Shown piece after piece: positions 3,074-30,125 of a stretch of DNA of 42,503 nucleotides (position 1 is the first letter of the stretch; every line of letters starts with the position of its first letter). The DNA comes from Granulicella sp. (lineage in GTDB: Bacteria; Acidobacteriota; Terriglobia; Terriglobales; Acidobacteriaceae), in contig PLUT01000108.1 in assembly GCA_003162875.1 (NCBI GenBank), forward strand, positions 2,215 to 44,717. Reading direction: 5' to 3'. A program made the position numbers and the translations under genes. Below the pieces are notes generated by a model, which saw only the letters and a list, made by a program, of their open reading frames with translations, ran no database searches and had not been told where the DNA came from.

Positions 3074-4402
3074 ATGAAATTCCGTCCAAATCACTCCGAT
3101 GTGTGCATTCTGACCCTGGCGCTGGGCTTGGCCGTCCCGCAGCTCCAGGCCAAGGTGATTGGTAACAATGTGCCCGCGCAGTCGCTCACACAGGAGCGTA
3201 TCGACAAGCTGCCCAAGAAAGAGCGCGCGGCCTGGGCCGCCTATCTGAAGCGCTCGGAAGAGCAGATGCGGGTGGACCGCGCGACGCTTGCCGCCGAGTT
3301 GAAGCCCGGCGAGGTCGCCCCACCGCAGCCTGCAGAAGGCCGCGGAGCGTTCGGCCAGGGAATGTCGCTGCGCCACGAGGACGCGTACTTCGGGACTGCG
3401 CCGGCAAGGCACATCGCCGACGTGATTGTCAGCTTTCAGACTCCGGCGGCCGGGTGGAGCAAGAACATGGGGTTTTCAGGGGCGCTGCGGCTGCCGGGCC
3501 AACCCTACGCGGCCAACAATCTGAACGCGTTCCCCGACCCGAGCGACTTCGATAAGCCCAGGGACCCCAAGTGGAACTACGTGAGTACGCTGGACAACGA
3601 CGCGACCAACACCGAGTTGCACTTCCTGGCGAAGGTCCAGGCGCAGACTCCGGGCAAGGATGGGGATGCGTACCGGGCGAGTTTCATCAAGGGCATCCAC
3701 TATCTGCTGGCCGCGCAGTACCCCAATGGCGGATTTCCGCAGGTCTATCCGCTGGAGGGTGGATACCACGACGCAATTACCTTCAACGACGACGCCGTCT
3801 CCGAGTCCGCGGAGACACTGACGGATGTCGCCGGGGGCAAAGGCGAGTACGCGTTTGCACCCGCAGATTTGCGCAAGCAGGCAGGCGAGGCAGCCGATCG
3901 GGCGCTGGCCTGCATTCTGAAGTCGCAGATTGTGATTGACGGCAAGAAGACGATCTGGGCGCAGCAGGAGGACATGCTCACCCTGGCTCCGGTTTCGGCG
4001 AGAAACTACGAGCCGGGAGCGCTGGCGGCGTCGGAGAGCGCGGACATGCTGGACTACATGATGTCGCTGCCGAATCCTTCCAAGGAGCTGATCGCCTCGA
4101 TCCAGGCAGCGGTGACCTGGCTGAAGGGTGCGGCCGTTAGCGGATTCGCGTATACCGGAAACCGCACCGACGGCCGGAAGCTTGTGGCCACCCCTGGCGC
4201 GGGCGCGCTTTGGTCGCGCTACTACAGTATTCCGGCGCAGAAACCGATCTTCGGCGATCGCGACAAGACGCTGCATGACGATGTGAACGATCTTTCGCTC
4301 GAGCGCCGGAACGGATACTCCTGGTGGAGCAATGGCGAGCAGAAGACCGTCGACCACTATGCGGACTGGGCCAAGGCGAACGGAGTTGCGATCGGCGGCT
4401 AG
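3074..4402 (+). CDS. Pectate lyase, PL10-like (PelA)
   Basis: VSTLDNDATNTELHFLAKV, GIHYLLAAQYPNGGFPQVYPLEGGYHDAITFNDDA; signal peptide at MKFRPNHSDVCILTLALGLAVPQLQA. Track ORF starts earlier (2942), inside cca. Confidence 0.88.
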   Translation: MKFRPNHSDVCILTLALGLAVPQLQAKVIGNNVPAQSLTQERIDKLPKKERAAWAAYLKRSEEQMRVDRATLAAELKPGEVAPPQPAEGRGAFGQGMSLRHEDAYFGTAPARHIADVIVSFQTPAAGWSKNMGFSGALRLPGQPYAANNLNAFPDPSDFDKPRDPKWNYVSTLDNDATNTELHFLAKVQAQTPGKDGDAYRASFIKGIHYLLAAQYPNGGFPQVYPLEGGYHDAITFNDDAVSESAETLTDVAGGKGEYAFAPADLRKQAGEAADRALACILKSQIVIDGKKTIWAQQEDMLTLAPVSARNYEPGALAASESADMLDYMMSLPNPSKELIASIQAAVTWLKGAAVSGFAYTGNRTDGRKLVATPGAGALWSRYYSIPAQKPIFGDRDKTLHDDVNDLSLERRNGYSWWSNGEQKTVDHYADWAKANGVAIGG

Positions 4403-13814: not shown

Positions 13815-14612
13815 ATGACGTTCAATGAGCATGGTGGATTCGACGGACTCGATGAGAACATCAGGACCTATTCGGCTGCAGCCAATGGTGACGACCCTGC
13901 GGATGGATATGGCAACAGCCCCTTCGACGATGATGAGGAAGAAGAGGAGGTCGTCGTGGCGATGACCTCGGATGACGACGAGGATCTCGATCAGCTGGAG
14001 GATGAAGTCGACGACCTGCTGCGAAGCGCGTCTCATATTGAGGCGGCAATCATCGTGGCGGCTCCGCCGTCGCCGGCAGCAGGCTATACGCCCGCGGCGA
14101 AGCCTTCGAAGGTTCCCGAGAAGAGCACTGCGCCTCCCGCGCCAAAGAAGGCTGCGAAGAAAGCGTCGCCCGCGAAGAAAGCTCCAGCGAAGAAGGTTCC
14201 TGCGAAGAAAGCAAAGAAGGCCAAGAAGAAGGTAGCGATTAAGGCGGTTGCCAAGAAGGCCGTCAAGAAAGTGGCCAGGAAGGCCGCCAAGAAAGTGGTC
14301 AGGAAGGCCGCCAAGAAAGTGGTCAGGAAGGCCGCCAAGAAGGTGGTCAAGAAGGTTGCCAGGAAGGCGGCCAAGAAAGCTGCCAAGAAAAAGACATTGA
14401 AATCTGCCGCGAAGAAGGCGAGTGCTCGGCGCGGCGGTAAGGCCGCTTTGAAGAAAGCGGTCGGCAAGAAGAGCACTTCAAGAAGCAAAAAACCCAATAC
14501 GAGAGGTACTACCTTGGCAACTAAGAAAGCAGCAAAGAAGGCAGTCAAGAAGGCAGTCAAGAAGGCCCCAGCAAAGAAGGCTGCAAAGAAAGTCGCGAAG
14601 AAGAAGAAGTAG
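13815..14612 (+). CDS. Histone H1-like Lys/Ala repeat protein with acidic N-terminal segment
   Basis: FDDDEEEEEVVV...DDDEDLDQLEDEVDDLL followed by ~150 aa of KKAAKK/VVRKAAKK repeats. Confidence 0.85.
   Translation: MTFNEHGGFDGLDENIRTYSAAANGDDPADGYGNSPFDDDEEEEEVVVAMTSDDDEDLDQLEDEVDDLLRSASHIEAAIIVAAPPSPAAGYTPAAKPSKVPEKSTAPPAPKKAAKKASPAKKAPAKKVPAKKAKKAKKKVAIKAVAKKAVKKVARKAAKKVVRKAAKKVVRKAAKKVVKKVARKAAKKAAKKKTLKSAAKKASARRGGKAALKKAVGKKSTSRSKKPNTRGTTLATKKAAKKAVKKAVKKAPAKKAAKKVAKKKK
14271..14342 (+). repeat. 24-bp coding tandem repeat, three copies (GTGG[C/T]CAGGAAGGCCGCCAAGAA[A/G])
   Basis: Copies at 14271, 14295 and 14319 with 1-2 nt differences; a degenerate fourth follows. Confidence 0.9.
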
Positions 14613-26380: not shown

Positions 26381-26529
26381 GCGGGAAGTTGCGAGTTGTC
26401 AGTTGAGGGCGATGCTGCTTCTTCGATCTGGCCGCGAGGATGAGGGGTGGGCGGCGCGGACTTCGCGCTGTCAAGCGGAAACGTCGGCTTCGATTTGGCG
26501 TTGGCGGCGAATGCGCGTAGAAGGGACAC

Positions 26530-28209
26530 ATGGAAATATTGACCTCGGCGGAGATGGGTGCGGCGGACCGGCGGACAGCGGAGGAGTTTGGCGTGCCGCT
26601 GGAGACGCTGATGGAGAACGCGGGCGCTGCCGTGGCGGGGTTCTGCCTGAGACGGTATTCGGCGGCGGAGCGGGTGGTGGTGCTGTGCGGCAAAGGCAAC
26701 AACGGCGGCGACGGGTTGGTGGCGGCGCGGGGGCTGGCGGCCGCGGGCGTTGCGGTTGCGGTTGTGCTGCTGGGCCGCGAGGACGAGGTGAAGGGAGACG
26801 CGGACCACCCCAGCGAGCAAGCTCGCCGGGGACCCCGGGCGGGAGCGCTGCGACGGTTGCGCGCGGAGGCTCCGGAGGTTTTGCTGCGGGTGGTCGTCGA
26901 TGAGGCTGGGCTGGCAGCCGCGAAGCAGGCTATGGATTCTGCGGACCTGCTGATCGATGCGGTGTTGGGAACGGGATTCAAGCCGCCGTTGCCACCCCAG
27001 CGAGCGGAAGCTCGCCGGGGGCCCGGTCTGCGCGGGCTGGCGGTGGCGCTGCGCGAGCTGGTGGCGCAGACGAGTGCACCGGTGGTGGCGGTCGATCTGC
27101 CGAGCGGGTGGGACGCGGACTCGATGGCACAGACGGCGGAGGGAGCGTATCGCGCGGATGCGGTGGTAACGTTTACGCGGCCGAAGATGGCGCACGTGTT
27201 TGGCAACTTGACGGCAGGGCCGGTGGTGGTGGCGGAGATTGGGTCGCCGGCGGAGGCGGTGACTTCGGCGAGCGGGCTGCGCTGGGCAGGGGCGTCGAAG
27301 GCAATTGCCGAGCGGCCGCGGGATGTGAACTCGAACAAGGGAATGTACGGGCACGTGCTGGTGGTAGGCGGAAGCTATGGGACTTCGGGTGCGCCGGCGA
27401 TGACGAGCGTGGCGGCGCTGCGGGCAGGCGCGGGGCTAGTGACGGCGGCGGTGCCGAGGAGCATTGTGGACGCGGTCGCGGGAGTTGCGCCCGAGTTGAT
27501 GATGGCGGCGCTCGAGCAGGGGCGAGAGGGCGCGATATTGCTGCAGAACCTGGCGAGCGGCGGCCTGGAGAGGCTGATGCAGGAAAAGCACATCAGCGTG
27601 GCGGCGCTGGGGCCGGGACTTTCGACACGGGGCGAGGCGAGCGAGTTTGCGCGGGAGTTTGTGGCGAGGGTGAAGCTGCCGATGGTGGTGGATGCAGATG
27701 CGTTGAATGCGTTCGCAGGGCGCGCTGCGGAATTGAATGGCGAGGGGCGAGTGCTGGTGCTGACGCCGCATCCGGGAGAGATGGCGCGGCTGGCGGGGAT
27801 GACCGTGAAGGAGGTTGAGGCGGACCGGGTGGGGCTGGCGCGGAAGTTTGCGACCGAGCACCAGGTGACGCTGGTGCTGAAGGGATGGCGGACACTGGTG
27901 GCGCATCCGGATGGGCAAATCGCGGTGAATACGAGCGGGAACCCGGCGATGGCGAAGGGCGGGAGCGGGGACATCCTGACCGGGATTGTGGCTGCGATGC
28001 TGGCTCAGTTTCCGGATGATGTGGCGCGGGCGGTGGAGGCGGCGGTTTATCTGCATGGGCTGGCGGGGGATTTTGCGGCGCAGGCAATGGACGAGCATAC
28101 GGTGCTGGCGACGGATACGGTGATGCATTTGTCGGACGCGTTTCGCTACCGGGTGAAGGATGCGGGTGGAATGACGTGGATTTGTGGGTTGAACGAGACA
28201 AAGGCATAA
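26530..28209 (+). CDS. nnr: Bifunctional NAD(P)H-hydrate repair enzyme (epimerase/dehydratase), with two in-frame palindromic insertions
   Basis: CGKGNNGGDGLVAARGL; APVVAVDLPSGWDAD; KGMYGHVLVVGGSYGTSGAPAM; LTPHPGEMARL; NTSGNPAMAKGGSGDILTGI. Confidence 0.92.
   Translation: MEILTSAEMGAADRRTAEEFGVPLETLMENAGAAVAGFCLRRYSAAERVVVLCGKGNNGGDGLVAARGLAAAGVAVAVVLLGREDEVKGDADHPSEQARRGPRAGALRRLRAEAPEVLLRVVVDEAGLAAAKQAMDSADLLIDAVLGTGFKPPLPPQRAEARRGPGLRGLAVALRELVAQTSAPVVAVDLPSGWDADSMAQTAEGAYRADAVVTFTRPKMAHVFGNLTAGPVVVAEIGSPAEAVTSASGLRWAGASKAIAERPRDVNSNKGMYGHVLVVGGSYGTSGAPAMTSVAALRAGAGLVTAAVPRSIVDAVAGVAPELMMAALEQGREGAILLQNLASGGLERLMQEKHISVAALGPGLSTRGEASEFAREFVARVKLPMVVDADALNAFAGRAAELNGEGRVLVLTPHPGEMARLAGMTVKEVEADRVGLARKFATEHQVTLVLKGWRTLVAHPDGQIAVNTSGNPAMAKGGSGDILTGIVAAMLAQFPDDVARAVEAAVYLHGLAGDFAAQAMDEHTVLATDTVMHLSDAFRYRVKDAGGMTWICGLNETKA
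26806..26839. repeat. In-CDS palindromic element copy 1
   Basis: CACCCCAGCGAGC-AA-GCTCGCCGGGGACCCCGGG; inside nnr, encoding HPSEQARRGPR. Confidence 0.85.
26993..27026. repeat. In-CDS palindromic element copy 2
   Basis: CACCCCAGCGAGC-GGAA-GCTCGCCGGGGGCCCGG; inside nnr, encoding PPQRAEARRGPG. Confidence 0.85.
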
Positions 28210-28264
28210 CACCGATTTGCGCCGACGGGCACCGATTTTATTTAGGGAAAGATGAAGGAGAGGA

Positions 28265-28702
28265 ATGAGGGAGCGGCGGTTCAGGACACGGTCGGTGGAG
28301 GGGACGCTGGAGTTGGGTGAGCGGATTGCGGAGATGCTGCAGCCGCCAATGGTGGTGATCCTGCGCGGCGAAGTGGGCGCAGGCAAGACGACGCTGGTGA
28401 AAGGGATTGCGGCGGCGCTGGGTGCGGCGGCCGAGGACGAGGTGACCAGCCCGACATTTACGATCGTCCACGAATACGTTGGGACTTCAGTGCGGCTGTT
28501 TCATCTGGACCTGTATCGGCTGGAGACGGAGGAGCAGGTTGCGGTGCTGGGGCTCGATGAGATGGCGGGATATCCGGACTCGCTGGTGCTGGTGGAGTGG
28601 GGCGAGCGGTTCGAGAGCATCGTGAAGCGGGCGGCCGCGGAGATTTACATGGAGCACGGCGAAGGCGATGAACGCGGGCTGATGGTGAGGTTGAAGGAGT
28701 AA
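28265..28702 (+). CDS. tsaE: tRNA threonylcarbamoyladenosine biosynthesis ATPase TsaE
   Basis: VVILRGEVGAGKTTLVKGIAAALG, EVTSPTFTIVHEY, LFHLDLYRLETEEQ, LVLVEWGERF. Confidence 0.94.
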   Translation: MRERRFRTRSVEGTLELGERIAEMLQPPMVVILRGEVGAGKTTLVKGIAAALGAAAEDEVTSPTFTIVHEYVGTSVRLFHLDLYRLETEEQVAVLGLDEMAGYPDSLVLVEWGERFESIVKRAAAEIYMEHGEGDERGLMVRLKE

Positions 28703-28778
28703 GGCGGGCAAATGGTTTACCTCCCGCATCAGGAGCGATGGGCCGCGCATGGCGAGCAGCCGCGCGGAGGAAACCGCA

Positions 28779-28816
28779 GGTCCTTCGACTCCGCTGCGCT
28801 CCGCTCAGGATGACAA
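28779..28816. repeat. Dispersed repeat GGTCCTTCGACTCCGCTGCGCTCCGCTCAGGATGACAA
   Basis: Homologous to 24943-24976. Confidence 0.8.
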
Positions 28817-28852
28817 ATATTTTGGGAGTCGAGATCGTCCATCACCCACGGA

Positions 28853-29731
28853 TTATGCGGCGGGGGTGAAGATGAGGCTTTTGGCGCGGCCGGTATAGCG
28901 GTAGATGGCGCACTCTTCGTCGCCGGTGGAACCGTATTCGCGCTGGCGGGCGATGGCATCCAGGTCGGCGGCGTGGTCCTCCGGGGACATCTTGACGTTG
29001 TCGAGGAAGAGCTGGACGAAGGCCGGGTTGCGATCGAGGACGCTGGCGCATTCCGCGTTGACGTAGATGAGGTCTAATGCGGGCTCGCGGGCCTGCACCC
29101 CAGCGAGCAAAGACCGCTCGCCGGGGGCCCGGGATTTGGGGCGGGCGGCGAACTGGGTCTCGATGCGGCGCAGGAGTTGGCGGAGGACGGGCGCTTCGAA
29201 CGGGTGGAACAGGAAAAGGAGTGTGGGCGTGGCGGGGAGATCGAAGTCGAGCGCGTCGCCCTCGACGATCTGGATGGGTGCGAGGCGCGGTGAGGTTGGG
29301 TCTTCGGCGTGGGATGCGGTCCAGTGGGCGACGTTCTGACGAGCGATGGCGGCGAGCGAGGGGTTGAGTTCGATACCGACGACTTTGCGGAAGCGGAATT
29401 CGCTGGCGACGAGCAGGCCTCGGCCTTTGCCGGCGCCGACGTCGATGAAGGTGTAGCTGGAGATGGGGTGGGGCGGGATGGTCTCGCGCCAGTGGCCGAT
29501 GAGCGCGCGCAGGATGGAGGGCGCGACACCATAGTAGGCGGTGACGTGCTCGTCGTTGGCGTGACCGGTGATGAGGTGCCTGGCGGGGACCAGGCCGCTG
29601 GTGTCGACGCCGTGCGCCTGGTCGAAGGGATGGATCGGGAAGTCGGTGAGTTGGAGCCGGTCGCGCGGGCGGGTGGGCGCCGCGACGAGACTAGGTTTTT
29701 GCGCGATGGTCTTTGATCTGGACGAGGGCAT
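28853..29731 (-). CDS. SAM-dependent methyltransferase, class I
   Basis: SSYTFIDVGAGKGRGLLVASEFRFRKVVGIELNPSLAAIARQN. Confidence 0.85.
   Translation of the reverse strand: MPSSRSKTIAQKPSLVAAPTRPRDRLQLTDFPIHPFDQAHGVDTSGLVPARHLITGHANDEHVTAYYGVAPSILRALIGHWRETIPPHPISSYTFIDVGAGKGRGLLVASEFRFRKVVGIELNPSLAAIARQNVAHWTASHAEDPTSPRLAPIQIVEGDALDFDLPATPTLLFLFHPFEAPVLRQLLRRIETQFAARPKSRAPGERSLLAGVQAREPALDLIYVNAECASVLDRNPAFVQLFLDNVKMSPEDHAADLDAIARQREYGSTGDEECAIYRYTGRAKSLIFTPAA
29096..29133. repeat. In-CDS palindromic element copy 3
   Basis: CACCCCAGCGAGC-AAAGACC-GCTCGCCGGGGGCCCGGG; inside the methyltransferase, antisense to copies 1-2 relative to coding direction. Confidence 0.85.
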
Positions 29732-30125
29732 TCGGGGGCCGTTTCGATGTTAGATGATGGGCAAGGCGGGCGTAGCCCTCGGGCGAGATGCGATCGGGCG
29801 TCCAGACGGGATGGTTGAGCAGGGAGACTTCAGTGCGGTGGATGGTCTCGAACGCGGCGAGGCGGTTTTGAATCTGGGCGATGAGGGGGGCGGCGTCGGA
29901 TTCGGTGTCAGCGAGCCGGAGCGGAGTGAGGGCAATGCGGACGCGCTGGCGCGGCGGAACGCCGGGGATGCCCGCGCCGGGAGCGTCGGGGTCGGGCACG
30001 ATGGCGATGCTGTAGACGAGGCCGAGGTCGACGATGTTGAGGGGGCTTCCTGGGTCGTAGCAGTCGCGCAGCGCGGCGAGGACGTCGGCTTCGGTGAGGG
30101 GCGCGGCTGGGACGGCTGGGTGCAT
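29691..30125 (-). CDS. Metal-sulfur cluster assembly factor (DUF59/MIP18/SufT-like)
   Basis: TEADVLAALRDCYDPGSPLNIVDLGLVYSIAI; start moved to MHPAVPAAP. Overlaps the methyltransferase start by 41 nt. Confidence 0.85.
   Translation of the reverse strand: MHPAVPAAPLTEADVLAALRDCYDPGSPLNIVDLGLVYSIAIVPDPDAPGAGIPGVPPRQRVRIALTPLRLADTESDAAPLIAQIQNRLAAFETIHRTEVSLLNHPVWTPDRISPEGYARLAHHLTSKRPPNALVQIKDHRAKT

Follow-up and report, generated by a model that had tools for sequence, protein, structure and literature searches.

The DNA analysed here, a stretch of 42,503 nt from Granulicella sp. that we call the window, carries an nnr gene on the plus strand whose reading frame runs through two nearly identical palindromes, and this raises the question of how the same hairpin came to be translated twice within one enzyme. 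The initial annotation had proposed that a short mobile palindrome inserted into the gene and was tolerated as protein. Both palindromes were found exactly where that annotation had placed them, with the stems, loops and tails that it had described (Table 1), and the reading frame is unbroken across the two of them, giving the peptides DHPSEQARRGPR and PPQRAEARRGPG. The gene product matched Pfam PF03853 and PF01256 as well as PDB 2ax3 (TM0922 Nnr, E 6.7e-68).

Table 1. Hairpin copies, their host genes and other repeats in the window
Feature	Coordinates	Strand	Remarks
nnr, bifunctional NAD(P)H-hydrate epimerase/dehydratase	26530..28209	+	Host of copies 1 and 2; YjeF_N and Carb_kinase domains
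Copy 1, palindrome	26806..26839	+
Copy 1, hairpin core	26808..26836	+	Loop AA
Copy 1 with insertion footprint	26803..26838	+	36 nt, 12 aa (DHPSEQARRGPR), missing in orthologues
Copy 2, palindrome	26993..27026	+
Copy 2, hairpin core	26995..27025	+	Loop GGAA; tail GCCCG
Copy 2 with insertion footprint	26989..27027	+	39 nt, 13 aa (LPPQRAEARRGPG, placement ±1 codon), missing in orthologues
Copy 3, long-loop form	29096..29131	+	7-nt loop AAAGACC; absent from the initial annotation
Weakly methyltransferase-like ORF, host of copy 3	28856..29749	−	Coordinates are those of the open frame, not of a start codon
Intergenic copy of the widespread TCCTTCGACTCCGCTGCGCTCCGCTCAGGATGAC repeat	28779..28815		Between the tsaE-like and methyltransferase-like genes
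Tandem 12-nt repeats	14205..14600		Encode a tract rich in lysine and alanine, of histone H1-like character

The sequence blocks that flank the palindromes had been expected to run together in other Nnr proteins, and this was borne out by the homologues with a readable alignment, which lack both insertions. About 10 wrong-frame rows were left out of a first alignment; a second one was clean and comprised 18 homologues, of which one, from another group, shares 46% identity. Where the frame was correctly extracted, KGDA or KGEA joins the AxAL block directly and GTGFKPP joins LRGL directly, and among the homologues with a readable alignment only this genome has 12 and 13 extra residues at those two junctions. 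The homologues without insertions come from Edaphobacter and other Acidobacteriaceae, and the closest relatives of the window protein are Edaphobacter and Granulicella among the named ones, together with unnamed Acidobacteriaceae, by which the source appears to be an Edaphobacter-like acidobacterium. Orthologues from distant genera with the same residues at both sites were not found. In the AlphaFold model of Nnr, with a mean pLDDT of 86.7, only two long segments fall below 50, residues 89–99 and 149–165, which cover most of the insertions (residues 92–103 and 154–166) and lie between secondary-structure elements, so that the predicted structure agrees with the proposal that both insertions occupy loops. 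The nnr gene of Granulicella sp. bog_210, a metagenome genome, carries an independent in-frame hairpin (locus L096, around position 3243; residues RPNEERRSSGTPL) at a third site, a few residues upstream of the first.

A scan of the window with the 11-mer GCTCGCCGGGG, allowing up to one mismatch, gave 14 matches against 4.0 expected and exposed a third full copy. Its host, two genes downstream of nnr, has a match to Pfam PF13649 (E 4.9e-4) that falls under the Pfam cut-off and orthologues that are 47–77% identical. Copy 3 is read in frame on the minus strand, within an 18-aa stretch of which up to all 18 residues are missing from syntenic relatives. Orthologous sites without the insertion were therefore seen for copies 1 and 2 among Nnr homologues and for copy 3 among syntenic relatives; these empty sites were drawn from proteins mostly 65–82% identical, not from strains, and no pair of filled and empty sites was seen at the strain level. 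None of the window copies lies next to N bases, and some copies elsewhere in the same genome adjoin them. A search of Rfam with positions 26400–29500 gave no match at E values up to 1. As single strands, the nnr copies fold with energies that are unremarkable for their composition (z −0.6 and −1.6), so that the evidence for them lies in their repetition and not in energy.

The palindromes are a dispersed repeat family of Acidobacteriaceae with the consensus YCA-CCCC-A-GCGAGC-loop-GCTCGC-C-GGGG-A-CCCC-G, and the general unit can be written as YCA-CCCC-N-stem-loop(2–8 nt)-stem-N-GGGG-A-CCCC, about 32–39 nt long. The strict hairpin CCCCAGCGAGC-N(0–20)-GCTCGC occurred 31 times in this genome (84.6% complete, 394 contigs) and not once as the reversed control, which settles that the sequence recurs beyond chance; the same form occurred 24 times in genome G017, five times in G010 and zero to two times in the other sampled members of the genus. 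With up to two mismatches, the right half gave 125 matches genome-wide against 11 in the control; with one mismatch, the six highest counts among 60 genus genomes were 64, 36, 26, 26, 25 and 17. In a phylum sample of 396 genomes, a stricter pattern was present in 12, all of them from the family of this genome, and none was found outside it. Changes in the stem are compensated (GCGAGC/GCTCGC, GCCAGC/GCTGGC, ACGAGC/GCTCGT and GCGATC/GATCGC), and the generic form CCCC-N-stem-loop-stem-N-GGGGACCCC matched 115 times, mainly with AA or AAAGACC-like loops, against once for the reversed control. From the loci of this genome and its relatives we pooled 131 distinct copies after removal of reverse-strand duplicates; because copies were collected by pattern, the rarer stem types are under-counted. 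These copy counts refute the reading in which the two nnr stretches are ordinary loop-length variation and palindromic by chance. Loop length at the nnr sites does vary among some orthologues, but the same DNA recurs many times against near-zero controls, in different frames and also between genes, and we regard the probability of that reading as negligible. The three window copies, every one in coding sequence, lie inside 2.3 kb (26806–29131), as compared with 31 strict copies in 4.8 Mb.

Direct repeats flank the copies more often than expected. In the 107 copies outside tandem arrays, which were left out of the statistics, flanking repeats of at least 5 nt were found for 21 (2.9 expected) and of at least 6 nt for 17 (1.5 expected, with a permutation maximum of 7); outside recognisable host repeats, duplications of at least 6 nt were found in 9 of 49 copies against 0.57 expected. 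The duplication varies in length from 4 to 9 nt and usually starts right after ...ACCCC on the right side, while on the left side its other copy is followed by 2–5 nt, mostly ending in YCA, and then by CCCC; the insertion point lies before G, usually GG or GA. Clear examples are GGCGGGATT (locus L185), GGGATTT (L021), GACGCT (L177, in purD) and GCCTGC (L183). For the window copies themselves, the best candidate is a weak GCGG duplication at copy 1, and no clear one accompanies copies 2 and 3. At locus L182 one copy sits in the loop of another, and in tandem arrays (L116, L123, L112, L163 and L175) the element and a short flanking duplication repeat as one, which suggests later amplification via slippage or re-insertion at the duplicated target. 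The duplications and the nesting, in other repeats and in each other, indicate at the level of sequence that the element family moves or has moved, in keeping with the mobility first claimed for it. We consider it very likely that the copies belong to a family of very small non-autonomous mobile DNA hairpins that are moved in trans and tolerated where they fall in frame in loops.

Copies were present both inside and outside coding sequences, and 66 of the 131 were within recognisable repeats: 37 adjoin GGGGCAC-type palindromes, 10 lie in GGAATGAC palindromes, eight in CAGGATGAC repeats, seven in GGGAACA tandem repeats and four in CCTGGGGC hairpins. A rule by which intergenic copies always occupy the loop of a host palindrome was rejected, as folding of the flanks gave 10.9 cross pairs against 9.6 for mismatched flanks; many copies do sit in REP-like palindromes, though not as a rule. 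GGGGCAC motifs stand in opposite orientation on the two sides of Y1 genes at loci L184, L193, L198, L205, L208, L209 and L210; these genes are RAYT/TIRYT-like, and the motifs are probably their cognate REP/TIR repeats. The GGGGCAC palindromes appear to resemble the transposase-associated repeats of Acidobacteria reported by Di Nocera et al. (PMC3733652).

The outer bases on the left of the element, YC, can pair with GR, the two bases at which the target begins. The combinations of element end and target were CCA-GG in 52 cases and TCA-GA in 27, against five for the crossed CCA-GA and seven for TCA-GG; the outer position matched at a rate of 0.69 (permutation 0.45, SD 0.04), and at 0.71 outside known repeats (permutation 0.49, SD 0.05). 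This co-variation recalls the guide–target pairing of single-strand transposases, although the same table would result from two subfamilies of the element that prefer different targets. The element could be a palindrome of the REP type, with a resident Y1/HUH tyrosine transposase (RAYT/TIRYT, IS200/IS605-like) as its mobiliser; this would amount to the mobile-hairpin explanation with a named enzyme. Such transposases handle single-stranded hairpins and find their targets by base pairing. Besides the co-variation and the many copies in the palindromes that flank several Y1 genes, Y1 transposases were found in all six copy-rich genomes and in 50 of the 60 from the genus overall; however, no element was seen at the flanks of Y1 genes in the loci examined, copy number is weakly correlated with Y1 number (rho 0.24, p 0.06), and a GTAG tag lies near the hairpin ends in just five of 131 copies. 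Target duplications are not known from IS200/IS605 insertion, and the duplications seen here do not fit that mechanism as it is generally known. Overall, we regard a Y1 transposase as a possible but doubtful mobiliser.

The target duplications and inverted arms would also suit a minimal MITE derived from a classical insertion sequence with a DDE transposase, whose full-length parent would be lost or lie outside the examined loci. We judge this origin unlikely, as the duplication length varies, the ends are asymmetric, with an extra ACCCC on one side only, and no left and right halves split by gene-sized DNA were present in the loci examined. The precise right end, the more variable left end and the variable duplication length are what spread as RNA might leave, with a reverse transcriptase copying the hairpin into DNA at nicked targets. 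No reverse transcriptase domain (PF00078) was found, however, in the three copy-rich and nearly complete genomes G010 (99% complete, 25 copies), G017 (96%, 36 copies) and G057 (97%, 17 copies), and the correlation with copy number was rho −0.10, which largely refutes such an enzyme as the mobiliser and makes this route extremely improbable. No mobilising enzyme has been found so far, and there was no full-length parent element in the loci examined. Tentatively, and with odds that we place well short of even, the hairpins may form a distinct mobile class. The two outer bases would pair with the two that open the target, the duplication would vary between 4 and 9 nt, and the enzyme would belong neither to the known REP-associated transposases nor to the reverse transcriptases.

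Copies inside genes were called by Pfam, orthologues and alignment to solved structures; codon-bias scoring was abandoned for this purpose because it gives negative scores to real genes, the host of copy 3 among them. The set of coding copies was found through open ORFs and is biased to open frames. Copies were found within the conserved domains of PurD, of PrmC in two species and of a CocE-type peptidase, and within the head domain of tRNA nucleotidyltransferase/poly(A) polymerase; FtsQ probably has an in-frame copy, and a copy in the PHP domain of error-prone DNA polymerase and a tandem pair in an agmatine deiminase-like protein are less certain. Others are N-terminal or lie in linkers, as in GrpE of two species. 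The element is translated in different frames and on both strands. Its CCA form has no stop in six frames and its TCA form has a stop in one; a special design for stop-free frames was dismissed, since about 70% of sequences shuffled at this composition lack stops in all six. Retention of the peptides or hairpins for some help to the host protein or mRNA would be in line with prmC and grpE, where the same insertion is common to two species and some copies thus persist, but the different frames, both strands and unrelated host proteins, with the majority of copies lying between genes, make such domestication very unlikely. In purD of genome G003 (locus L219), the PurD loop that elsewhere holds the hairpin, before PMVLEFN, is occupied by another insert, ...AVILSAAKDPR..., whose sequence resembles a translated CAGGATGAC-type repeat, so that a second repeat family may enter genes in frame.

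The element had been likened to the Rickettsia palindromic elements (RPE), and on comparison with their published description the likeness holds for behaviour and fails for size and terminal tags, and probably for sequence. In both cases dispersed palindromes lie in frame within conserved protein genes as well as between genes and are tolerated rather than evidently useful, and one gene can take two elements, as nnr does here and as uvrB of R. conorii, interrupted by two RPE, does (PMC3733652). In contrast, RPE are 105–146 bp long (Ogata et al. 2000; PMC2229807), and target duplications are marked as unknown for them (PMC2229807); the acidobacterial unit falls well below that length, is GC-rich, has no CGTC end tag and has statistically supported duplications. 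The GTAG/CGTC REPs (Di Nocera et al. 2013, PMC3733652) are likewise palindromes of 20–40 nt in many copies, between and inside genes, with tandem groups, compensated stem variation and some genes with two insertions, but the present element has no constant GTAG or CGTC tag (for 20 of the 131 copies CGTC lies at varying positions within about 10 nt of the hairpin ends) and is not next to the examined Y1 genes; target duplications are not discussed for these REPs in PMC3733652. The TIRs and TIRtrons of acidobacterial tyrosine transposases (PMC3733652) come from the same phylum, and their G-rich repeats flank Y1 genes and often host the element, which is itself nested in them as a second layer and was absent from the flanks of the examined Y1 genes. 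The NEMIS, ERIC and RUP MITEs are also non-autonomous, with target duplications and sometimes in-frame gene fusions, but they measure about 70–300 bp and have terminal inverted repeats, often with TA ends (PMC2229807), whereas the element is about one-third of that size and has C runs at both ends; target site duplication itself is a trait that it has. Judged by these descriptions, it behaves like RPE and intragenic REPs but is neither an RPE nor a GTAG/CGTC REP. Very small cyanobacterial repeats, a few tens of nucleotides long, dispersed, apparently mobile and with no known enzyme, were reportedly described by Elhai et al. in 2008; likened by description only, they are similar in size, dispersal and apparent mobility and belong to a different phylum. 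No earlier description of the element in Acidobacteria was found in the open-licence literature, which is weak evidence of novelty.

For a mobile hairpin of this kind, we propose that movement would occur as DNA, through a staggered cut by a trans-acting enzyme, with insertion before G and duplication of 4–9 nt of target. Most insertions would persist between genes, often within other palindromic repeats, and an insertion in a gene would survive only if its full length is divisible by three and it falls in a tolerant loop; a GC-rich unit with few or no stops in any frame would help this survival, and a benefit to the host protein would not be required for persistence. Proteins would thus hold short stretches of selfish-DNA origin because hairpins landed in working genes and the frame was kept. 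In-frame palindromic insertions were first known from Rickettsia, which are intracellular and have reduced genomes, and the same phenomenon is now seen in Acidobacteria with genomes of roughly 3–6 Mb, produced by a different and much smaller element. With target duplications and many relatives with and without copies, the movement of tiny palindromes becomes testable, and since the hosts include core enzymes such as PurD, PrmC, tRNA nucleotidyltransferase and Nnr, the cost of selfish peptides becomes measurable.
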